Positions 1 through 10,073 of a stretch of 10,073 nucleotides of DNA are shown in pieces (the stretch's first letter is position 1; every line of letters begins with the position of its first letter). The notes under the pieces were generated by a model. That model saw only the letters and a list, made by a program, of their open reading frames with translations, made no database searches and was not told the origin of the DNA. Source of the DNA: a bacterium (GTDB taxonomy: Bacteria; UBP7; UBA6624); contig JACNFQ010000073.1 in assembly GCA_014384545.1 (NCBI GenBank), positions 1 through 10,073 of the forward strand, in the 5' to 3' direction. Both the position numbers and the translations under genes were made by a program.

Positions 1-724
1 CTAATAATGTCTCATATTCGGCAGCCCCTTTCATCCCTCCTAGGAGCCCTACCATCTGATTGGTCTGGAGAAAGACATAATATTCCGGAGCAGAGACCGC
101 TGTAACTCCACCCCCAACGGGGATATCCATTTGGTCCCCCGCATACTGTATCCAAGTATCCATCACAGCACTCGCCTCAAGAGCGATAATCAGGGAAGCA
201 TCCGTCAGTTTCTCCATGCCCTCCATGACAGTTAAGTCTGTAATATCCCGTCCTGAATAATCCTTTGGGAACGCTTTCCCTATCCCCTGCCCCATCTGGA
301 GAATGACGGCACTGGTACCCGATTTATACCCTAGGTAGGTGTAGTCCACACCATCAACCATCCCCAATCCTCCCTCTTGAGGGGATGCTGTAACCCAAGG
401 AAGCAAACCTGAAACTAAGCCCGGAGCATCTGCAGACAAAGAGAGTGATACCACACGCAACCTCTTCTCCTTAGCATGGAGCAAGACCGCTTTCGCCATA
501 GGGGTCAATTCAGGTGCTGTAGACGGACCATAATCAAAAGCCAAGACGACGATGTCTCGGGGTGCCAAGCGATCCATTTCTTGGAAGAGAGAGTTGACTT
601 CTTTCGTAACGCGTATCGGCATCCCAATCGGTCTAATAATCGGAAACATCACAGCCAATGCCATCGCCAAGAAAATCCATCGGCGATCAATGGAGCGCAT
701 ACGACGCCAAAAGAGAGTGCTCAT
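1..724 (-). CDS. Membrane-anchored hypothetical protein, N-terminal 241 residues (3' end outside window)
   Basis: The frame is open from ATG at 724 to the left edge with no stop, giving 241 residues. A basic N-terminus is followed by one membrane helix (about residues 16-33), then a large domain. Within it are DIVVLAFDYGPSTAPELTPM (57-76), GVDYTYLGYKSGTSAVI (125-141), SLIIALEAS (177-185), VGGGVTAVSAPEYYVFLQT (203-221) and VGLLGGMKGAAEYETLL (225-241). I recall this pattern from hypothetical proteins beside DUF6754 genes, where it is co-conserved, but know no function. The start overlaps the upstream TGA as ATGA, with GGGGAG and a G-rich run just ahead. The predicted topology is one anchor with the bulk of the protein on one side of the membrane; which side is not evident. 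Confidence 0.87.
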   Translation of the reverse strand, partial: MSTLFWRRMRSIDRRWIFLAMALAVMFPIIRPIGMPIRVTKEVNSLFQEMDRLAPRDIVVLAFDYGPSTAPELTPMAKAVLLHAKEKRLRVVSLSLSADAPGLVSGLLPWVTASPQEGGLGMVDGVDYTYLGYKSGTSAVILQMGQGIGKAFPKDYSGRDITDLTVMEGMEKLTDASLIIALEASAVMDTWIQYAGDQMDIPVGGGVTAVSAPEYYVFLQTNQMVGLLGGMKGAAEYETLL

Positions 725-1377
725 TTCCCCCCGCTCCCCATATAGGTCCTCTCAATCCCAAAGACAATCTTGATCGCTGTTGCGGTCATCCCCAATCCCA
801 CACCCATCGTGATTGCCCTCTTTCCTGCCAAGTTAGGGATGTCCATAATCCAGTCGCCCCATTCGGGCAATGCTTCATGGATTGCCGCTCCTAAGGGCAC
901 CCTTGCCAACATGACCAACGCTGCAGCGACAAGCATCAGGGTCGCTTCAGGACTCCGAGCTCTGAAGGCTCGGTACGCTGCCGAAGCAACGAAGAAAGCC
1001 AACAGAGAGAACATCGTGGCAGAAAGGGGAACTTGGAGATAATCAAACGCCCATTGGAAACGAATGTTTTCACCCAACCCCGCATCACCAGTCATAAAGA
1101 GACCGATAGCGACCATTCCTAGGGCTGAAAGGATGACGACCAAAGAGAAAAACCGACCATCTCTCTTGTCCCTGATCTTCTTGGCATGGCGTAAGAGAAG
1201 CGTCATCACACCCAAGTAGAGTGTGAAGACAGCAATCACGATATTATTCTGGTTGAGTTCTTCATAGAAGACACGAACCCAAGTCACACCCGTTTCGGCA
1301 TCCTTATCTACAAAATAGGCCATCCACATAAAGAGCCCCAAGAGGAAAGCCGTAAGGACAGGGATCCGTGTCTTCAT
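721..1377 (-). CDS. Six-helix integral membrane protein
   Basis: This 218-residue protein is of unrecognised name. Hydrophobic segments predicted by eye lie at about 5-22, 45-63, 77-95, 113-137, 144-163 and 187-206, with a basic loop (63-75) after the second, fitting six helices with the N-terminus inside. The stretch FQWAFDYLQVPLSATMFSLL (108-127) looks like a conserved re-entrant or helix entry. No transporter, redox or protease motif is apparent. The start is ATG at 1377, which overlaps the DUF6754 stop as ATGA with a GGGGAT about six bases ahead. An in-frame GTG/TTG extension to 1446 would run deep into the DUF6754 gene and adds a non-membrane, Trp-rich leader that looks like shadow translation. 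It ends in an ATGA overlap with the next gene. Confidence 0.86.
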   Translation of the reverse strand: MKTRIPVLTAFLLGLFMWMAYFVDKDAETGVTWVRVFYEELNQNNIVIAVFTLYLGVMTLLLRHAKKIRDKRDGRFFSLVVILSALGMVAIGLFMTGDAGLGENIRFQWAFDYLQVPLSATMFSLLAFFVASAAYRAFRARSPEATLMLVAAALVMLARVPLGAAIHEALPEWGDWIMDIPNLAGKRAITMGVGLGMTATAIKIVFGIERTYMGSGGK

Positions 1378-2177
1378 CCGAATATCCCCACCATCAAGCC
1401 CGACCCACCCATTCCCAATCCAGCACCAACGACAATCATCAACCAAAGAACGCCTTTCACAAGGTCAGATGCTTTCAAGCTAGAGAGAAGCGCTGGGTCT
1501 TTGGACAGATACGCTCCAGCGGCATAAAGCTCTTCACCGATAAGCGTATAGTCACATGCTGCGATAAAGAAGGGAAGTTGGACAACGGCATCAGTCCCCG
1601 CAATCTGAATCGCACCGATCGCATTCCCCGTTTCAGCCAACAGAAGACTCTCTGCATAGAACATACCCTGAAGGAAAATCGTCGCTGGCTTTTCCCTGAC
1701 AATAATCCCATTGACAGCAGCCGTATACCCAAACTGATCTTCGGTAATAAAGAAGTTATCCTCGGTATTGAGCACTTCGGGCTTTCCAGCCTGAAGATAG
1801 GCATCTTTCAGCGTCTCTCTAGCAACGGTCATGACGATGGGATCGCGGTGAGGAACAATCAACCGACTTTCGTAACTGGCTACCTTTTGAGCAACCCGAC
1901 CCAAGATATTCAGAGAAGCCAAAGTCGCCACATCAGCGGCACTGGAAAGCCCGGGACAATAAAGAATCGCCTTCCCCATTTCGGTAGCTCGTCCAATCGC
2001 CTCCTCAACTGCATCCAACCCCGGAATATGCCGAATATAGAACTGTGCACCCTTCCGTGCCATAGTGAGGGCACCAAAAATAGCGACAGTAAAAAAGAGA
2101 GAAGCAACAAAGGCACCCAAACGATCACCCATAAACCAAGAAGGGGCAGCCAAGAGGAGAGGTATCAAAGGAATCAA
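1374..2177 (-). CDS. DUF6754 domain membrane protein
   Basis: The product has 267 residues and matches, from memory, the DUF6754 family, whose function is unknown. There is an N-terminal hydrophobic part (2-11 and 20-39) and a C-terminal hydrophobic helix (about 242-266). Between them is a long conserved cytoplasmic-type domain with ILYCPGLSSAADVATLASLN (71-90), LGRVAQKVA (92-100), IVPHRDPIVMTVARE (107-121), FITEDQFGYTAAVNGIIVRE (143-162), the highly conserved AESLLLAETGNAIGAIQIAG (175-194) and FFIAACDYTLIGEELYAA (203-220). The start is TTG at 2177 or 2168; the next ATG (2132) would remove much of the first hydrophobic part and has no ribosome-binding site. The stop TGA overlaps the next ATG as ATGA. 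The gene sits between a barrel-sandwich protein and a polytopic membrane protein, so a membrane complex is a fair guess. Confidence 0.87.
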   Translation of the reverse strand: MIPLIPLLLAAPSWFMGDRLGAFVASLFFTVAIFGALTMARKGAQFYIRHIPGLDAVEEAIGRATEMGKAILYCPGLSSAADVATLASLNILGRVAQKVASYESRLIVPHRDPIVMTVARETLKDAYLQAGKPEVLNTEDNFFITEDQFGYTAAVNGIIVREKPATIFLQGMFYAESLLLAETGNAIGAIQIAGTDAVVQLPFFIAACDYTLIGEELYAAGAYLSKDPALLSSLKASDLVKGVLWLMIVVGAGLGMGGSGLMVGIFG

Positions 2178-3295
2178 ACCTCCAATCTTTCCACATTCGC
2201 CCGAGGAACGATCGCTTCTTCTCCATCGTCAAATCGAACCCCCAAAACTCTTACTCTTGCTTCACTTTCCACTTGCTGGGGTTCTACCACAAGTTGGGTC
2301 ACGACGCCAGCCCGTCCAAAATAGGGGGTACGAATGACCACAATGCGGCTACCCACATCCAGCCCCATCCCCCCCTCGTCCGCGTGGAGGATACCCTTCA
2401 AATCAGGGGTAGGTACGAGAATCTCGGGTCTCAATACACCCGCACGAATCTGGGTCGCTCCGTTGATGCTCGCCAACCGTCCTGCACTCGCCACCAACAA
2501 CTTCCATGTCCCCCCATCCATCGGTAGCCGACCAAAACCTTCAGTGACAACGAGAGTAATGCCTAGGTCTTCATTTCCTGTAATCGCCACACCGATATCA
2601 ACGCCCAATAATGCCCTCAGATCTTTGTCGTGAATCGCTCCGCCCACCAAAGCAGCAACCCCCACTTCTTGAGCCCGCACTATCGTCTCTAACTCCAAAC
2701 CAGCGCCTACCACCACAACAGCACCCTCCATTTCTGCCGTTATCCCCTCTGCACCCAATGTCTCGCTAGGGGAATCTACCCCTATCATCAATGTGCCCCC
2801 TTCTTCTCCTCCCACTCCAAAGATACCTTGGACAACAGTCGCCGTCGTCTCAACGACCACACCTTCTTCTTCAATGATCTCAACAATCGTCCCGGCCACA
2901 TACGCTTCAACTTCTACAGGTGTCGGTTTCCCACGAAGGTAAACTTGTCCATTTACCCTAGAAATAGAGTCAACTTTTCCGGATGCAGTTGCTAAGTATT
3001 CGCTCTTGAAAAACCCCCAAAACCCTTTACTTTCTGCAATCTTCTCTCCCTTCTCTACCCAGTCACCCACCCCGACAGTCATTAGGTCTGGGAGTTCATC
3101 GGGTTGACAACCCAAACGATGAGAAATCTTGAGGACTTGAACCGGACCAGGCAACTCTGTTCTGGCAACGACATCACTCGCTTTCACCACATCCCCTTTC
3201 TCTACCAAGATTTCGCCCTTTAGTGGTAGTCGCCGTACCTTGCGTATGAGAATCCCTGATCCCCGCATCAATCCTGGTGTAAAAGCCTGTGCCAT
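2174..3295 (-). CDS. Barrel-sandwich and KOW-like domain protein of unknown function
   Basis: This 373-residue soluble-looking protein has no membrane helix. Residues about 20-150 are a chain of short strands with LKGEILVEKGDVV (25-37), VGVGDWVEKGEKI (74-86) and ASGKVDSISRVNGQVYLRG (104-122). This is the look of barrel-sandwich hybrid (lipoyl/RnfC-like) folds, but without a recognisable lipoyl or biotin lysine motif. A middle alpha/beta part (about 165-285) includes GVDIGVAITGNEDLGITLVV (231-250) and TEGFGRLPM. The C-terminus (314-373) is KOW-like: GSRIVVIRTPYFGRAGVV, then VRFDDGEEAIVPRANVE. I recall similar proteins beside GlmL-like genes but know no function. The start is ATG at 3295, sharing one base with the GlmL-like TAA (TAATG); a TTG at 3337 is in frame but would overlap by 43 bases and is less likely. 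It ends in a TTGA overlap with the next gene. Confidence 0.86.
   Translation of the reverse strand: MAQAFTPGLMRGSGILIRKVRRLPLKGEILVEKGDVVKASDVVARTELPGPVQVLKISHRLGCQPDELPDLMTVGVGDWVEKGEKIAESKGFWGFFKSEYLATASGKVDSISRVNGQVYLRGKPTPVEVEAYVAGTIVEIIEEEGVVVETTATVVQGIFGVGGEEGGTLMIGVDSPSETLGAEGITAEMEGAVVVVGAGLELETIVRAQEVGVAALVGGAIHDKDLRALLGVDIGVAITGNEDLGITLVVTEGFGRLPMDGGTWKLLVASAGRLASINGATQIRAGVLRPEILVPTPDLKGILHADEGGMGLDVGSRIVVIRTPYFGRAGVVTQLVVEPQQVESEARVRVLGVRFDDGEEAIVPRANVERLEV
2178..2183 (-). promoter_or_regulatory. Shine-Dalgarno GGAGGT placed one base before a TTG start
   Basis: The minus-strand GGAGG (2183-2179) is the strongest ribosome-binding site in the window, but it stands one base from TTG 2177, too close by the usual rule. 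A second in-frame TTG at 2168 is ten bases away. The site decides between the two starts of the DUF6754 gene and mildly favours 2168; the 4-base overlap pattern of the neighbours favours 2177. Confidence 0.6.
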
Positions 3296-5100
3296 TATGC
3301 CCGACACCCTGGATACAACGACATCGCATGATGCCAAGAAGTAATCATCTTTACCCTCTGAAGGTCATCTTCAGGAAAAAGGAGAGGTCGCCCCCTGCCA
3401 TCAAAAAGCAACCCAACCTGTCCCCCAGTCAGTTCACCCTCCCACCCTTCCCCTTTCCCCGCTCCTACATCGATCTTCTTGTCTGGTCTGAGGGTCGCTT
3501 TCACCGATTCGCCCACACCAAGGGGAATCAACTTCAAGTCACCCACATGTAAAGAGAAACTCTCCCCCACTTCAAGATCAACTTCTACCAACGGGCGTCC
3601 TTTTCTTACGGTTCCAGTGGGTGCAATCGTCGTTCCTAAGTGGATAAGGCAATCCGCTTCAAAGACCTCAACCGCCGCCTGAGCGTTTATCGTAGAGAGA
3701 ACACCCAAATGGGGCATCATAAAGATGCTGTCCACCGCTAATTGGGTAATGCCAACAGGCTGGAATGCATCGGTAAGCATAGCCATCGCTTGAGCCCGTC
3801 GGGGTGCATGGGAAAGGACTCCACCCGAACCAACCAACAGATCCAAGCCCTCCATGTGCACGAGCGAATCACCACTGGTGCTCTGCGCAAACGCTTCCGC
3901 AATCGTCCTTTGTTGTTGGATCCCTTTTAGCCCCACCGCCAAAGAACGATGGTGGTCAAACGAAAGGCGAAGGGCTTCTCGGGCGAGAGCTTGCTCCAAA
4001 ATGAGCTCTTCGAGTGATTGGGGAATCGTCGTAGGGCGAATCATCTTATTCTTGATGCGGTTCCTCAACTCCTGTTCATCCATCGAAAAGGGAACCCATC
4101 TCATCACATTCTCCCAGCCCGACTCTGCCATTACCTGTGAGATGGAATAAGACATTCCAAGATTGGCAGAGACTGTCCGATTGAAGGTCTCTTGGAAGAC
4201 CGAAAATATATCCGTAGTTGCACCCCCAATATCCACCCCAATAACCTGAATCTCTTCTTGTTCGGCGACCCGCTCTATAAGTGAGCCTACCGCCCCAGGG
4301 GTCGGCATGATGGGTGCGTCTGTCCAGTCAATCAACTTGGGGTATCCTGGTGCCTGTTGCATCACATGTTCCATAAAGAGATCATGGATCTTCTCTCTGG
4401 CTGGGAAGAGATTCTCTCTCTCTAGGGTGGGGCGAAGGTTATCAACGATAAAGAGATCACAGATTTCCCCCAAGATTCCCTCCACCCGAGGCGCTGCATC
4501 CTTATTGCCAGCAAAAATGACGGGGAGTTTTGCAGAGCCCAACCTAGAGGCAGGTTTCGCTTCTCGAATGACCTCAGCCATCTCAACGACATGGGACAGA
4601 TCTCCTCCATCCGTCCCCCCAGAAAGGAGAATCATGTCTGGACGCAAGGTTCGAATCAACTCAAACCTCTCCCAAGTCTGTCGTCCATCGTTTATAGCCA
4701 AAGTCTCCATCACAATCGCACCAGCACCCAAAGCGGCGCGATGGGCACTCTCTGCCGTCATCTCCTTCACGACCCCTGCCACGAGCATTTGGAGACCTCC
4801 TCCTGCAGATGAAGTAGAGATATAGGCATCAACCCCGCTCTTTTCTTTACAGGGGCGAAGAATACCCTTACCCTCTTCTTCTAAGAAAACCCGACCCGTC
4901 AGCTCCTCCAGTTCCTCGGTCGCATTGACAACCCCTCGAGTTACATCCTCAAAAGGAGACTCTACCGTGGTGGGAGCTTCACCCCGCATCACCAACCGGT
5001 ACCCTTCCTCTTTTTTCTCAATGTAGACAGCTTTGGTCGTCGTAGAGCCACAATCTGTCGCCAGAACATTCTTGAGATTCTTCTCGTGCACTTGGGTCAT
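3295..5100 (-). CDS. GlmL/MutL-type ASKHA ATPase (glutamate mutase accessory family)
   Basis: This 601-residue protein belongs to the GlmL ('MutL', PF13941) family, actin/Hsp70-like ATPases first seen beside coenzyme-B12 glutamate mutase genes and thought to act as maturation or reactivation factors; it is unrelated to mismatch-repair MutL. Both phosphate loops are visible: ATDCGSTTTKAV (14-25) and IGVDIGGATTDIFSV (287-301). The adenosine-binding glycine turn is LLVGSGGVLSHAP (421-433). Further conserved pieces are STSSAGGGLQML (95-106), LLSGGTDGGD (158-167) and VIFAGNKDA (194-202). After about residue 485 there is a C-terminal part ending in a GLLFDGRGRPLLFP strand pair (563-576), seen in the longer members. 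ATG at 5100 overlaps the previous stop as ATGA, with AAGGGGA six bases ahead. The stop TAA overlaps the next ATG by one base. No mutase subunit is in the window and the downstream genes are membrane proteins, so its client is probably something else. Confidence 0.9.
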   Translation of the reverse strand: MTQVHEKNLKNVLATDCGSTTTKAVYIEKKEEGYRLVMRGEAPTTVESPFEDVTRGVVNATEELEELTGRVFLEEEGKGILRPCKEKSGVDAYISTSSAGGGLQMLVAGVVKEMTAESAHRAALGAGAIVMETLAINDGRQTWERFELIRTLRPDMILLSGGTDGGDLSHVVEMAEVIREAKPASRLGSAKLPVIFAGNKDAAPRVEGILGEICDLFIVDNLRPTLERENLFPAREKIHDLFMEHVMQQAPGYPKLIDWTDAPIMPTPGAVGSLIERVAEQEEIQVIGVDIGGATTDIFSVFQETFNRTVSANLGMSYSISQVMAESGWENVMRWVPFSMDEQELRNRIKNKMIRPTTIPQSLEELILEQALAREALRLSFDHHRSLAVGLKGIQQQRTIAEAFAQSTSGDSLVHMEGLDLLVGSGGVLSHAPRRAQAMAMLTDAFQPVGITQLAVDSIFMMPHLGVLSTINAQAAVEVFEADCLIHLGTTIAPTGTVRKGRPLVEVDLEVGESFSLHVGDLKLIPLGVGESVKATLRPDKKIDVGAGKGEGWEGELTGGQVGLLFDGRGRPLLFPEDDLQRVKMITSWHHAMSLYPGCRA

Positions 5101-5378
5101 TCCTCGTCCCCTTCAAGTGCGTTCTCAATCAAACGTAGCATGCGACGCATCCTATCCCTATCTCCAAAGAACTCGGGGACCGAATCCCAAGCTTCAGCCC
5201 CAAAGAGAAGAGCCCCCACGGGAGCAAAAACGGTGGCTGCAGATGAGGCAACGACCGATAGGGGGCCCATTGATTCAAGGAGGAAAAGCGCTGGAACCCC
5301 TAATCCTCTACTAACTAGATTCGTCGCTTTCTCTTCGTCATCCCTCCCCAAATCCCAAGGACGGAACAACCCTTTCAC
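5097..5378 (-). CDS. Hypothetical 93-residue protein with one hydrophobic segment
   Basis: I do not recognise this protein. It has a charged N-terminus (residues 1-24), a hydrophobic and small-residue stretch at about 27-61 that could form one membrane helix or a buried hairpin, and a strongly charged C-terminal helix (72-93: RDRMRRMLRLIENA, then an acidic tail). It starts with GTG at 5378, overlapping the upstream TGA as GTGA, with AAGGA about ten bases ahead. It ends in an ATGA overlap with the GlmL-like gene. That overlap on both sides, with no other long frame in the stretch, is the main reason to call it real. Its position directly before the ATPase suggests a partner or adaptor, which is inference. 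Confidence 0.78.
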   Translation of the reverse strand: MKGLFRPWDLGRDDEEKATNLVSRGLGVPALFLLESMGPLSVVASSAATVFAPVGALLFGAEAWDSVPEFFGDRDRMRRMLRLIENALEGDEE

Positions 5379-5815
5379 GAAATCGCGTCCTTGAGCGCCA
5401 TAGAAATCGCTTCTCTATCACCATTGACGGGCAAATGAATCCACATTCCCTTCAATCTCCCCCACGGTGAAGGACGAGATGTAGGCGAAAGAAAAGCACC
5501 TTTGGGATGGAAGTCAATACGCCTAAATCTAGAGAGATCCCGTTCGCCCACAACCCCCAAGTGAGTCACCTTGAGTGCCTTTCCATCCAACGCATAGCCC
5601 ACAGGAAGAAGGTACGTTGAAAGGGAGCCCACCATCAGAAGAGCCCCAATCAACGCCCCCAATGGACCAAATCCCCACCAGCCAAATCCACCACCAAACA
5701 AGAGGGCAATCCCCAAAGGAACAGATGCTCGTCCTCCATCATTGCGAAACCGCCAAACCGACCAACACAAAAGGGAACACATAGAGGACGGGGCGATTAT
5801 ATGGGAAAACATCAT
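5375..5815 (-). CDS. Small membrane protein with possible PH-like domain
   Basis: This 146-residue protein is of unrecognised family. A Gly-rich hydrophobic hairpin (about residues 31-49 and 50-70) would give two membrane helices. The following 71-146 region has the strand pattern of the bacterial PH-like domain placed after such hairpins: PVGYALDGKALKV (71-83), RDLSRFRRIDFHP (92-104), MWIHLPV (124-130), then a terminal helix. The PH assignment rests on topology and strand pattern only and is tentative. The start is ATG-ATG at 5815, overlapping the upstream TGA as ATGA, with AGAGGA four bases ahead. The gene ends in a GTGA overlap with the next. The strict coupling to both neighbours suggests it belongs with them, perhaps as a membrane tether, but nothing in it shows a reaction. 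Confidence 0.85.
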   Translation of the reverse strand: MMFSHIIAPSSMCSLLCWSVWRFRNDGGRASVPLGIALLFGGGFGWWGFGPLGALIGALLMVGSLSTYLLPVGYALDGKALKVTHLGVVGERDLSRFRRIDFHPKGAFLSPTSRPSPWGRLKGMWIHLPVNGDREAISMALKDAIS

Positions 5816-8800
5816 CCCTTCCTCTCTGGTGCACCCAATCTCTTGATAACCTCAGGGGGCTCGTCCAGAATCCATCTCTCTGCGATCCGATTGAACGGTC
5901 CTCTTGCGGAGACAGGGAAGGGTCGTGGACTATGGGCACCGCCCCCCTTTTCTGGGCGCCATGATGGTCCCGCCAACGACCCAGAAACTAAGAAATCTAA
6001 GGGGTGAGCACCGTACCCAGACATCAACTCCTCTACCCGTGAAAAGGAGATGGTTGAAGGCAGAAAAAGATCTGTTCTCTCCCGTTCTGCGGGGTCCATT
6101 AGATTGGCGCGGGCATCTTCAACACGGCGGTATTCTTCTGGTTTTTTCTCGGGTCCAAAGTCTTTCAAGCGACGGAAATACGCCGCCTCAATCTCTTTAT
6201 CTGTAGCAGTCACTTCAACCCCTAAGTCTCTATACCCCCTAATCCGCATCCTGATACCCTCCAAACTATCCTCCCAAGTCGCCCTATCAATAAGCCGAAG
6301 ACGGGCAGGATCCTTGAACCTCTCTGCAATAGAGATGATCTCGGTCACCATCCCAAACCAGATCTTCCTCTGCCCATCTTCTCCTGATTGGGATCTCCAC
6401 ATCTGAAGCAATCGCTCCCAATGGGGTTGAGCCTTGTCCAAGCGATCTGCCAAGGTATGGAGAGTCGCTAGATTCTGTGTCGCCACCTCCTTTGAGAGAG
6501 GTTGAGAAAGTGCCTTCGTAAAGAGGGTCTCGGCCCGGCGATACCTTTTCGAATCCATCTCTTCAACACCCTTCGCTACTGCGACCGCTCCCCGGAGACC
6601 ATCCAATAAGAGTGCCCCGATACCCAAATGCCCCGCACGCTCCCACGCTTTTTCAGCACCTGCAAAATCACCCGTTTCAAGGAACCAATACCCCAAGACG
6701 GTATACCCCCTTGCTCTGCCGATTCCTGTGCCCAAATCTCTTGGAGAGCCTTCAAGAACTTTGTGTAATAGGACAATTGCCTCGTCCTTCTTGCCCCAAC
6801 GAATCAAAGCCCACGCCGCCAATATCGCTCTGATTCCAGACTTAGGCATCTTGAAATCAGCAGGTGGTGGAAGTCCCTGTGCAGCACGAACGGCTGCTGC
6901 AAGAGCGGGTCCGGCACTTTCAGAAATCAATCCAATCAGCGATACGAGGTCTGCCTCCGATCCTTCCTCATATCGGGAAGATAAGAGAATGCGACCCAGC
7001 CTTGACGCATCCAAAGGTTCAGTCGCTCCCGCTCTTATCCCATCTACCAGATGGGTCCTCCCCTTATCCTCGTCACCTGCACGCCACGCCAACCACCCTA
7101 GGTCTGACCGCAAGGAGGGAGGGAGTTCTCCCCGTCCTACCTTCTCCAATCGCTTCCATGCCCCCAGAGGGGGTGCAGCGCCCAACCATTGTTGGAGAAG
7201 ACGAGGGTCCTCTCCTATCATCAACGCTCGTTCCACAACTTCTCTTGCCTCTGATGCCTGCCCCGCTTCCAATAGATCTCCCACCCAGCGATGGGCAACT
7301 TCAACGATCCCTTGAAGACAACGAGGATCTTGCCGAACGCGCCATCCATCTCGATACTTCTTCTCTGCTTTCTCCCACTCCCCTTCTCTAGCAAGGGAAA
7401 AAGCTGTCGCAATCGCCATCTCTACCCGCAAACCATCTGCCAATCCTCCCGCCAAAGCGAGGTCTTCTTCACGCAATGCGGATTCGCCCCCCGCCGAGAG
7501 CATCAGTCGGGCAAATCGGGCTGCCCCCTTCGGACTTTCACCCGTACGATGGAACGCCTTTCTTGCTGCCCTATTATCCCCCAGCTCCTCCTCACAAAGC
7601 CCCTCTCTAACAGCCGACCACCCCTTGCCCAATGTGGCATAGGTGGACTGGGATTCTTTGAATTTTCCTCTTGCTTCGCCCACCCTTGCCTTCAGGTAGT
7701 CCCCCAATCTCCCCTCTACTTTTTCAACCCAGGACTCTGCCAAATCTGGTTGATTAGCGAGGAGTGCCATCCACACTCCCCACGCTCTGGCTTGGGGTGC
7801 CAACGGTTCAGGCAATGAAGAAAGGAAAGAAAAAGCACCAAGGCTATCCTCTCTTGCGGTGTTCGCTAAGAAACTCCCCAGGAGAGGGTGGTGCCCCACA
7901 GGGGGATTCTCCTGCCACCGCTCTCGTAGGGCGTCTCTCGCTTCTCTGGGCCAAGGAGAAGGCATAAGTCCTGACAAGAACGAGATATCCTCTGAAGATC
8001 TCATCAGAACCGCCAGACCTTCTGGAGAGCAACTCCTTTGTGAAGCTGCCCTACCCAAGACTTCTAGGATCTGAGGAGTAGGTGTGGAAGAGGAGAGGAG
8101 ACGGGCAGCGGGGCCAAGAAGAGAAGGCGTTGCTAAAGCTAAAGTAGCGACTTCTTTCTCTAAACCATCCACTTCTCCATCGCTCACAAGGAGATCTCTT
8201 GCCAAAGATGTTCTGATTTCCTCCCCCTCTTTTCCCCTTGCTCCCTCCACCAAGACCGCTTGGAAGGCCTCTCTCCACCCTGTTGAAAGTGGGGGGGAGA
8301 GATTCTTGGCAGCCCACGCTGCCATCACACTCTCGTCAGGGTGGTTAGCAAGGAACCATAAAACACCCTTTTTTCCTTTTTCGCTCCATTCATTTGCAGC
8401 ACAAAGACCTCTTACAAACGCCTCTCTCAGGTCCCCCTTCTTCTTCCTCTTTAGCAACTTCCTAGCACTTGGAAGCAAGGGGGCAGGAACGATTTCTAGG
8501 TTCTTGATATGGGCTACGAGAGAATCTTCCATACCTTGGGGATCTTCAACGATCCATTGCGCTCTGGTGTCGTCGTCTAGGTTGGGATTCCAAGCACCAA
8601 GCTTTCTAAAAACGCTCTCCCCATGACTCAAGGCTAGCTCCAGCCAAGGACCTGTGGTCGGCTTGGCTCCGCCCTCAACCATGGTCTCCAAAGCAGGGAG
8701 AATCTCGGAAAGAGAGCCTCCCTCTTCGGCAATCCACTCGGCTGCCCGTTCAAACCAATCCGCGGTCTGTTCCGCCTTGAGAGCCCAGACCGCCCAATCT

Positions 8801-9003
8801 GAAAGTGCTGCCGATTTCTCTTTGGGTTTCAGTTTTCCCCACCCTAGATGGATCGTCTTGCAGGCGAGGTCAAATCTCTTTTTCTGGGCTAGTTTCACAC
8901 TCTTGGCATGGGGGTTTCCGAAGGAGAAGAGCGACATGAGTAGGATTCTAGTTTGGAGTCTGGCTTTGAGCCCAAAGAAGGAGAGCGCGAGGAGCCCCAC
9001 CAT
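5812..9003 (-). CDS. Large membrane-anchored helical-repeat (TPR-like) protein with a degenerate J-like domain
   Basis: The product has 1063 residues from the ATG at 9003, and I do not recognise a named family. The N-terminus is a short hydrophobic anchor (residues 2-11, then a basic stretch, then 20-27), with no lipobox or cleavage motif. Most of the rest is Ala/Leu/Trp-rich paired helices like degenerate tetratricopeptide repeats, best seen at about 436-488, 528-593 and 763-863 (for example GDFAGAEKAWERA). Residues 922-978 resemble a DnaJ J domain: YRDLGVEVTATDKEIEAAYF, then a DARANLMDPAERERTD ending. The HPDK loop reads GPEK (950-953), so stimulation of DnaK-type ATPases is doubtful. Start choice is uncertain. 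A TGA at 9033-9031 limits the upstream side. TTG at 9024 directly abuts AAGGAG, ATG at 9003 is 21 bases from it, and ATG at 8937 lies just after the rsmG stop. The end overlaps the next start as ATGA. A scaffold or assembly role is inference. Confidence 0.88.
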   Translation of the reverse strand: MVGLLALSFFGLKARLQTRILLMSLFSFGNPHAKSVKLAQKKRFDLACKTIHLGWGKLKPKEKSAALSDWAVWALKAEQTADWFERAAEWIAEEGGSLSEILPALETMVEGGAKPTTGPWLELALSHGESVFRKLGAWNPNLDDDTRAQWIVEDPQGMEDSLVAHIKNLEIVPAPLLPSARKLLKRKKKGDLREAFVRGLCAANEWSEKGKKGVLWFLANHPDESVMAAWAAKNLSPPLSTGWREAFQAVLVEGARGKEGEEIRTSLARDLLVSDGEVDGLEKEVATLALATPSLLGPAARLLSSSTPTPQILEVLGRAASQRSCSPEGLAVLMRSSEDISFLSGLMPSPWPREARDALRERWQENPPVGHHPLLGSFLANTAREDSLGAFSFLSSLPEPLAPQARAWGVWMALLANQPDLAESWVEKVEGRLGDYLKARVGEARGKFKESQSTYATLGKGWSAVREGLCEEELGDNRAARKAFHRTGESPKGAARFARLMLSAGGESALREEDLALAGGLADGLRVEMAIATAFSLAREGEWEKAEKKYRDGWRVRQDPRCLQGIVEVAHRWVGDLLEAGQASEAREVVERALMIGEDPRLLQQWLGAAPPLGAWKRLEKVGRGELPPSLRSDLGWLAWRAGDEDKGRTHLVDGIRAGATEPLDASRLGRILLSSRYEEGSEADLVSLIGLISESAGPALAAAVRAAQGLPPPADFKMPKSGIRAILAAWALIRWGKKDEAIVLLHKVLEGSPRDLGTGIGRARGYTVLGYWFLETGDFAGAEKAWERAGHLGIGALLLDGLRGAVAVAKGVEEMDSKRYRRAETLFTKALSQPLSKEVATQNLATLHTLADRLDKAQPHWERLLQMWRSQSGEDGQRKIWFGMVTEIISIAERFKDPARLRLIDRATWEDSLEGIRMRIRGYRDLGVEVTATDKEIEAAYFRRLKDFGPEKKPEEYRRVEDARANLMDPAERERTDLFLPSTISFSRVEELMSGYGAHPLDFLVSGSLAGPSWRPEKGGGAHSPRPFPVSARGPFNRIAERWILDEPPEVIKRLGAPERKG
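6070..6240 (-). other. J-like domain lacking the HPD motif (inside the large TPR-like protein)
   Basis: These 57 codons align by eye with the J domain of DnaJ: the Y-x-x-LGV opening, the D-x-E-I-x-x-AY helix II, and the A-x-x-x-L-x-DP-x-x-R-x-x-D helix III/IV end. The invariant HPD between helices II and III is GPE (codons 6156-6148), followed by K as in HPDK. This fits a J-like or diverged J domain used for binding and not for Hsp70 activation; the loss of function is inferred from known HPD mutants. Confidence 0.65.
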
Positions 9004-9544
9004 TACAACTGTAAGGATAGGCAACTCCTTTCACGGGGAGAAGAGGGGGGGGGGATGATCCCCCCGCAAAGAGAATGAGGAACCCTCCTTTTCTGACAAA
9101 AGGCCATAACCACTTTGCGGCTTCAACAGGAGGAGCCAAAGCTCTCGCTGTCACCAAATCAAAACGCCCCTTTAGCCTCTTGGGCAAATTGCGAACATCT
9201 TCACAAACGACATCCCCTCGCAGGTCCATCTTTGAGACCGTTTCCCTTAGCCATTCTGCACGCTTTTTTCCCCTCTCTACAAATGTGGGCAATAGGTCAG
9301 GAAAGAGGCAAGACAACGGGATACCATTGAGACCATTCCCCGACCCCACATCTAGCCATGAACCCTGTGTGGGGAACAAGGTGGGATATCTCTCTGTGGC
9401 AATGACACTGTCCATCACCCCTTGATCCCATCGTGCTTCGTCGCTCTTCCATCCTGCTGCCCGAAAGGGAGCTTTCTGTAGGAGACGATCAAATCTCTCA
9501 AGTCTCACTTTTAGCGCTTCGTTCAACGAAGGGACCTCCTCCAT
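8948..9544 (-). CDS. rsmG: 16S rRNA (guanine527-N7)-methyltransferase RsmG (GidB)
   Basis: RsmG uses S-adenosylmethionine to methylate N7 of G527 in the 530 loop of 16S rRNA; in other bacteria its loss gives low-level streptomycin resistance. The 198-residue product has the family's Rossmann fold. The SAM-binding glycine motif DVGSGNGLNGIPL is at residues 65-77, followed by the acidic and basic stretch FVERGKKRAEWL (88-99) and the conserved VTARALAP (131-138). The C-terminal RALLLW strand (186-191) matches the family's last strand. The length is slightly short for the family (about 200-240). The usual NLT segment before the DSV motif (45-47) is not evident, so the N-terminal helical region is diverged. 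The ATG at 9544 overlaps the lpxB end; a GAGGT lies about ten bases upstream. Ten consecutive C on the coding strand (9054-9045) sit in codons 163-167. The stop is TAG at 8950-8948, inside the 5' end of the next gene. Confidence 0.93.
   Translation of the reverse strand: MEEVPSLNEALKVRLERFDRLLQKAPFRAAGWKSDEARWDQGVMDSVIATERYPTLFPTQGSWLDVGSGNGLNGIPLSCLFPDLLPTFVERGKKRAEWLRETVSKMDLRGDVVCEDVRNLPKRLKGRFDLVTARALAPPVEAAKWLWPFVRKGGFLILFAGGSSPPPLLPVKGVAYPYSCNGGAPRALLLWAQSQTPN
9045..9054. repeat. Run of ten G (C10 on the rsmG coding strand)
   Basis: Ten uninterrupted G bases on the plus strand are read as C in rsmG, encoding Ser-Pro-Pro-Pro near residue 165. The reading frame on both sides gives a sensible RsmG, including the final RALLLW strand, so the length as written is in frame. 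Such tracts are slippage-prone in replication and in sequencing. Confidence 0.95.
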
Positions 9545-10073
9545 CTTGAGACCTCAACCTCCCAATCAGACCCTTCACGATAAGCATGGGCTAGACTTTC
9601 TAGAATTCTCCTTTCTTTCTCGGTTTCGCTCCTCATTAGGGCTTCCGCGAGTGCATCTGCCGTTGCTCGCCCTTGGATAAACTCAGGGACGATTTCATCC
9701 CCCGCCATCAGATTGGGATGAGTCCAGTAAGGGGGAGCCTTTTGTCCTAGTTTTATCCATGCCCAAAGAAGGGGAGAACCCTTATAGGCTGCCACTGCAG
9801 GTGTTCCTCTAACGACCGCTTCTTGGAGTGCGGTGCCCGATGCGACCAACGCTTTTTGACACCGCTCCAAAAGGGCACCTCCTTCCTTACAATCTCGTTC
9901 TATCCCCGGAGGGAGTTTCCCCACAATCCCAAAGGGATCAGAGACAACGACCCGCTTAGCCCAATCCACTAGAGAAGCGGCTTTTATGAAAGTATTCTTG
10001 TGCCGAGTGATCTCATCGGCGCGGCTTCCTGGCAAGAGAGCCAAGAGTCCTTTTTCGCGTTTGACAGAAGGGG
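9523..10073 (-). CDS. lpxB: Lipid-A-disaccharide synthase LpxB, C-terminal part (5' end outside window)
   Basis: LpxB is a GT19 glycosyltransferase that joins UDP-2,3-diacylglucosamine and lipid X into the lipid A disaccharide at the inner face of the cytoplasmic membrane. The frame is open to the right edge (first full codon 10071-10069) and ends with TGA at 9525-9523, giving 182 visible residues, roughly half of the usual 380 or so. Family motifs seen in order are LALLPGSRADEI near the start, ASGTALQEAVVRGTP in the middle (the donor-binding region of the second Rossmann fold), AAYKGSPL, and HPNLMAGDEIVPEFIQG. The TTG at 10044 lies inside the LLPGSR motif and is not a real start. The stop overlaps the start of rsmG by 22 bases. 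An lpxB gene implies an LPS-bearing outer membrane. The match is clear; only the missing N-terminal half is unseen. Confidence 0.94.
   Translation of the reverse strand, partial: PSVKREKGLLALLPGSRADEITRHKNTFIKAASLVDWAKRVVVSDPFGIVGKLPPGIERDCKEGGALLERCQKALVASGTALQEAVVRGTPAVAAYKGSPLLWAWIKLGQKAPPYWTHPNLMAGDEIVPEFIQGRATADALAEALMRSETEKERRILESLAHAYREGSDWEVEVSRWRRSLR

Follow-up and report, generated by a model that had tools for sequence, protein, structure and literature searches.

A GlmL-type ATPase co-inherited with a DUF6754 membrane-protein quartet in several bacterial phyla

Genes at the locus

A gene for an ATPase of the GlmL family, part of a run of overlapping genes that includes those for membrane proteins, is found in a contig from a bacterium of the UBP7 lineage (JACNFQ010000073.1, assembly GCA_014384545.1). 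The window, here meaning the whole stretch of DNA analyzed, is the entire contig (C100; 10,073 bases) and is part of a 1.39-Mb genome (G000), 79% complete. All window genes are carried by the minus strand, in the order lpxB (partial), rsmG and T, followed by the overlapping run P-S-G-K-D-B-A, in which G encodes the ATPase and D a protein with the DUF6754 domain (Table 1). According to the likely starts, G and K overlap by 1 base, and the P/S, S/G, K/D, D/B and B/A pairs by 4 bases each. The five genes from G to A, together with their 1- and 4-base overlaps, were thus found where the original prediction, restricted to positions 1–5100, had placed them. As P/S and S/G also overlap, the gene set extends beyond that segment.

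A is truncated by the contig end, and its last ~50 amino acids (aa) are encoded at the start of contig C50, the left-hand neighbour, where the end of A is followed by the genes E-D-B-A-E, E being a further membrane protein. The order is unbroken in the sister genome G002 (locus L006), and reads T-P-S-G-K-D-B-A-E-D-B-A-E, followed by PhoH-like and HD-domain genes.

Table 1. Coordinates of the genes and motifs of the window, and of TrkH-TrkA-like genes found near quartets in other genomes. The start codons of B and T are taken from translation of the open reading frame (ORF).
Feature	Position	Strand	Remarks
G, GlmL/PF13941 ASKHA ATPase, 601 aa	3295..5100	-	profile score, motifs
PHOSPHATE-1 motif of G, DCGSTTTK	5032..5055	-	
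PHOSPHATE-2 motif of G, VDIGGATTDIFS	4201..4236	-	
Adenosine motif of G, GSGGVLSHAP	3802..3831	-	
K, barrel-sandwich hybrid (RnfC_N-like) + alpha/beta + KOW/SH3-like protein	2174..3295	-	likely start ATG at 3295, fitting the family alignment; ORF reaches 3337
D, DUF6754 (PF20539), membrane helix - cytoplasmic Rossmann-like domain - membrane helix	1374..2177	-	profile score, model
B, six-helix membrane protein of the quartet	721..1377	-	likely ATG at 1377; ORF reaches 1446
A, membrane helix - exoplasmic Rossmann-like domain - membrane helix	2..724	-	likely start 724
S, small protein, 93 aa, directly upstream of G	5097..5378	-	
P, small membrane protein, 146 aa, upstream of S	5375..5815	-	no Pfam match; relatives in 13 loci
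T, TPR + DnaJ-like protein	5812..8937	-	ATG at 8937; ORF reaches 9024
rsmG/gidB, 16S rRNA methyltransferase (flank)	8948..9544	-	
lpxB, partial (flank)	9523..10071	-	
TrkH-TrkA-like genes	L058:10861-13250		
TrkH-TrkA-like genes	L069:10864-13253		
TrkH-TrkA-like genes	L059:7559-9664		
TrkH-TrkA-like genes	L062:4871-6976		
TrkH-TrkA-like genes	L073:5476-7683		

The GlmL-type ATPase and the glutamate mutase question

G matches the PF13941 profile with 430.5 bits (cut-off 27). The three ASKHA motifs, corresponding to the two phosphate loops and the adenosine turn of the full homologue originally predicted, are intact in G and kept in the branch members shown, and 199 of the 601 positions are invariant among 39 sequences of the branch. 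The family and the motifs are shared with GlmL (MutL) of the adenosylcobalamin-dependent glutamate mutase, described as a reactivating chaperone with reference to the diol dehydratase reactivase (PMC4682846). True GlmL proteins are encoded between glmS and glmE, and the reference loci of Peptoclostridium, Rhizobium, Ensifer and Prevotella feature the order glmS-glmL-glmE-methylaspartate ammonia-lyase. G differs by having no mutase, by an extra C-terminal domain (~aa 485–601) missing in glmES-linked GlmL proteins (461–467 aa), and by being co-inherited with K and DUF6754. Proteins linked to glmES are 29–32% identical to G over 44–64% of its length, and align with at most its first four fifths. 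On the NCBIfam GlmL model NF040745, G scores 232.8 bits, under the equivalog cut-off of 475. The same holds for the model of Or-4, a GlmL-related protein of ornithine degradation (NF040744; 211.9 bits, cut-off 600), a relative of which is encoded in Acetoanaerobium directly after a 740-aa protein carrying the DxHxxG cobalamin motif. In a phylogenetic tree glmES-linked GlmL split from the DUF6754-linked branch at 100/100, with branches of ~5 changes per site; as only two true GlmL proteins were included, the topology outside the DUF6754-linked branch is unsure.

No match to GlmE (PF06368) was found in the window genome at its 79% completeness, none of 52 DUF6754 genomes tested had GlmE over the cut-off, and glmES genes were missing from the part of C50 read; a glutamate mutase context was consequently rejected. 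The DxHxxG motif was absent from K (0/31), G (0/45), B (0/97), E (0/93) and S (0/34) proteins, and only sporadic in D (3/99), A (1/100) and P (2/13) proteins, and a B12 motif in partner proteins was likewise rejected. The earlier claim that the visible proteins include neither a mutase nor a DxHxxG motif thus stood in its first part, and has to be qualified in the second for a few homologues of D, A and P. Immediately to the left, both C50 and the sister genome continue with quartet genes and not with glmES. Judged from these sequences, the GlmL branch of the window is not linked to glutamate mutase.

Two B12-binding proteins, one short and featuring DGHDRG, the other of 1054 aa, are encoded elsewhere in the window genome, on contig C12 (positions 1905-7745; L179), beside a MeaB-like P-loop protein, so called by sequence recognition only. 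G might accordingly serve a B12 enzyme encoded at a distance, such as these, its operon position being incidental. This is very unlikely: co-inheritance tracks DUF6754 and K in many phyla, GlmE is absent, both NCBIfam scores fall far under their cut-offs, and the B12 proteins of C12 appear to have a MeaB-like chaperone of their own.

Conservation of the D-B-A-E quartet

D is a clear member of DUF6754 (PF20539; 367.5 bits, cut-off 27), and a scan with D retrieved 379 related stretches in genome contigs. Of 78 loci retrieved, nearly all have B, A and the membrane protein E after D. Quartets reside in about nine bacterial phyla, and hosts include Poribacteria, WOR-3/Stahlbacteria, TA06, Coatesbacteria, Mcinerneyibacteriota, Fermentibacter/Aegiribacteria, Methylomirabilota, Zixibacteria and Nitrospirota. 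DUF6754 was not found in the plasmid collection. Two to four quartets occur in tandem in several hosts, and WOR-3-like genomes contain up to 7 DUF6754 genes and normally a single 600-aa GlmL. In the D tree, the two copies of the window lineage arose inside that lineage, and the Mcinerneyibacteriota copies within theirs, denoting that the quartet was duplicated independently more than once. Profile-profile comparison revealed no homology among D, A, B, E and K. A insert of ~115–140 aa was observed inside the Rossmann-like domain of A proteins of Stahlbacteria/WOR-3 (L059:3678-5606, L062:1144-3066, L073:2025-3728). What looked like B-A fusions of 640 aa proved to be A reading frames extended upstream and containing an insert.

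Co-inheritance of the ATPase with the quartet

PF13941 was matched in 42 of 44 DUF6754 genomes, over the cut-off in 41; the exceptions are G015 and G038, which gave no match, and G036, which gave a weak one. K is present in all of the 45 DUF6754 genomes, these three included, and GlmL and K frequently occupy sites distant from the quartet. GlmL is encoded away from the quartet in Poribacteria and in most WOR-3 loci, so that co-occurrence goes beyond mere linkage. Among 245 genomes of a Nitrospirota-like phylum (that of G018), the identical 61 have DUF6754 and GlmL, and 184 have neither over the cut-off; the Fisher p value, about 3e-59, exaggerates the strength of the association, because genomes are not independent and the two genes are neighbours there. 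Of 147 genomes of a WOR-3-like phylum (that of G028), 135 have both, 3 neither, 5 DUF6754 only and 4 GlmL only (p 0.003), as counted by matching the DUF6754 list against the GlmL list. The set is conserved together in other genomes, and these comparisons strongly support a link between the quartet and both GlmL and K.

That G and K are a unit is supported independently by natural GlmL-K fusions, which occur in some genomes as a second PF13941 protein of about 950–1045 aa. Examples are found at L132:4923-7775 and L133:5300-8410 (950–1036 aa), with no D-B-A-E quartet nearby; the L133 protein has a helix-turn-helix-like extension at the N-terminus. G, K and the quartet could in principle be conserved core genes of related phyla, functionally unlinked, since several of the phyla may be related and the Nitrospirota-like pattern could stem from one clade. 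This explanation is highly improbable in view of the overlapping genes found in one operon in several phyla, of the G-K fusions, and of the joint absence of GlmL and DUF6754 in the 184 relatives.

S resides directly before GlmL in most phyla. In WOR-3, TA06, S5B7, Fermentibacter and Aegiribacteria, a glycine dehydrogenase P2-like gene lies directly before, or overlaps, the S-GlmL pair (L102, L123, L125-L127, L130, L131, L135, L136, L078). T, measuring ~1040 aa and featuring the DnaJ-like domain at its end, overlaps P by 4 bases, and is thus translationally coupled to the operon; it is restricted to the window lineage, and probably not a core member.

Predicted structure of the membrane proteins and of K

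Confident AlphaFold2 models were obtained for A (full-length copy of the sister genome; pLDDT 95.4) and D (window copy; pLDDT 88.1). In each, one helix is followed by a Rossmann-like domain and by a membrane helix at the C-terminus. By prediction, on the basis of flanking Lys/Arg counts and of the models, the two proteins have mirrored topologies, the domain of D being placed in the cytoplasm and that of A outside. D relatives have an N-terminal exoplasmic fibronectin type III (FN3) domain, missing in the window lineage. B and E feature about six helices each, and conserved charged residues, such as H58, R131, R134, R183 and E205 in B (numbering of the second-set B of L006), and D34, E42, H43, R236 and R243 in E (first-set E of L006). 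No Pfam family was found in 48 A proteins. Sequence searches of the PDB with A, K and GlmL gave chance-level matches only, and the match obtained with D is confined to the FN3 part of its relatives. None of eight window proteins matched PADLOC at E<=0.01, and a known anti-phage defence system was rejected.

VIA-align retrieved for both D and A generic fold matches to RCK/TrkA, CODH epsilon and transhydrogenase domain III, the best match of D being Sir2 (Z 12.1). These proteins share with D and A the general Rossmann/DHS-like fold; in contrast, no sequence similarity was detected. The Rossmann-like fold is too common for this likeness to show a function.

The leading rival explanation sees in the quartet a complex for ion transport or gating, in which D and A would act as RCK/TrkA-like nucleotide sensors, B and E as the membrane part, and GlmL-K as an ATP-dependent regulator. 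For both D and A, the RCK domains of MthK, TrkA and KtrA belong to the higher-ranking matches (Z about 9–10), and charged residues are conserved in or near the helices of B and E. Moreover, TrkH-TrkA-like genes for potassium uptake lie just downstream of D-B-A-E on the same strand in two lineages, 81 bases away in Mcinerneyibacteriota and about 1.1–1.3 kb away in WOR-3/Stahlbacteria (Table 1), and TrkA alone is found near two more loci. As hints of ion transport, neither the neighbourhood nor the RCK-like folds is strong. The Z values are usual for any Rossmann fold and no higher than those of other such folds, Sir2 scoring higher for D and CODH epsilon equally for A; Foldseek searches with A and D retrieved nothing at E<=0.001; neither a selectivity filter nor a pore motif was recognized; and the Trk neighbourhood is limited to few lineages. 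An ion-transport role is regarded as unlikely.

The N-terminal region of K resembles the N-terminal barrel-sandwich domain of RnfC/NqrA, an RnfC_N-like domain being seen in 4 of 7 K members (best E 5e-5). D and A in turn resemble transhydrogenase domain III with Z values of 8–10. The quartet might be viewed as a membrane complex that converts energy by redox or transhydrogenase-like chemistry, and K as its counterpart of RnfC/NqrA. However, the RnfC_N match of the window protein (23.7 bits) is under the gathering score of 25.6, no further RnfC/NqrA domain was matched in K, Pfam gave no redox-cofactor domain in the set, and barrel-sandwich domains are widespread. A redox function appears improbable, more so than ion transport.

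A candidate ATP-driven activator of a membrane complex

The best explanation is that G and K probably use ATP to activate or assemble a membrane complex as yet undescribed, in line with the original prediction that this GlmL branch serves a different, undescribed membrane-associated machine. The part which that prediction gave to the ATPase, as energiser or assembly factor, is putative. Confidence is higher for the linkage itself, and lower for the mode of activation. The inner-membrane part would be the D-B-A-E quartet, with one Rossmann-like domain inside (D), one outside (A), and about six helices each from B and E; the soluble part would consist of the ASKHA ATPase G, of K and of the small protein S. 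By analogy with the presumed action of reactivases and GlmL-type proteins of the ASKHA class, G and K may undergo ATP-driven opening and closing, and may activate, assemble or reset the client membrane complex through the cytoplasmic domain of D. One G-K pair is found per one to seven quartets, and a shared activator or assembly factor fits this ratio better than a fixed subunit.

Several points weigh against this explanation. In the WOR-3-like phylum GlmL is missing in 5 of 140 DUF6754 genomes, and 4 genomes have GlmL without DUF6754, many genomes being incomplete metagenome assemblies. The perfect pattern of the Nitrospirota-like phylum may reflect a single clade, in which the genes also adjoin. 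GlmL-K fusions sit apart from D-B-A-E in the loci read, and G-K may thus have another job as well. Both the quartet as the client and the direction of energy flow are what we infer from the data.

A wider proposal is put forward tentatively, as a possibility less probable than the activator role itself. About nine phyla would share an ATP-activated membrane machine of a new kind, perhaps a translocator of ions or metabolites, in which a repeating unit displays Rossmann-like domains, serving as sensors or enzymes, on each side of the membrane, and in which a GlmL-type ASKHA ATPase does the driving or gating.

Significance

DUF6754 is known to Pfam as a domain; its partners and the link to GlmL appear undescribed in the open-access literature. 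DUF6754, PF20539 and PF13941 were not mentioned in the open-access papers searched, subscription journals being outside that search. Among the components, the ATPase alone is a member of a family for which a function has been proposed, and this function does not suit the present context.

The set comprises few, clearly delimited genes, and its function is directly testable. Annotation of the ATPase as GlmL/MutL may point to a glutamate mutase that the organisms do not have; about a quarter of the sampled Nitrospirota-like genomes are among those concerned. If the explanation is true, a multi-component membrane system co-inherited in many little-known phyla lacks a description in the open literature searched, and the role of the GlmL family would be wider than that of a B12-enzyme helper.

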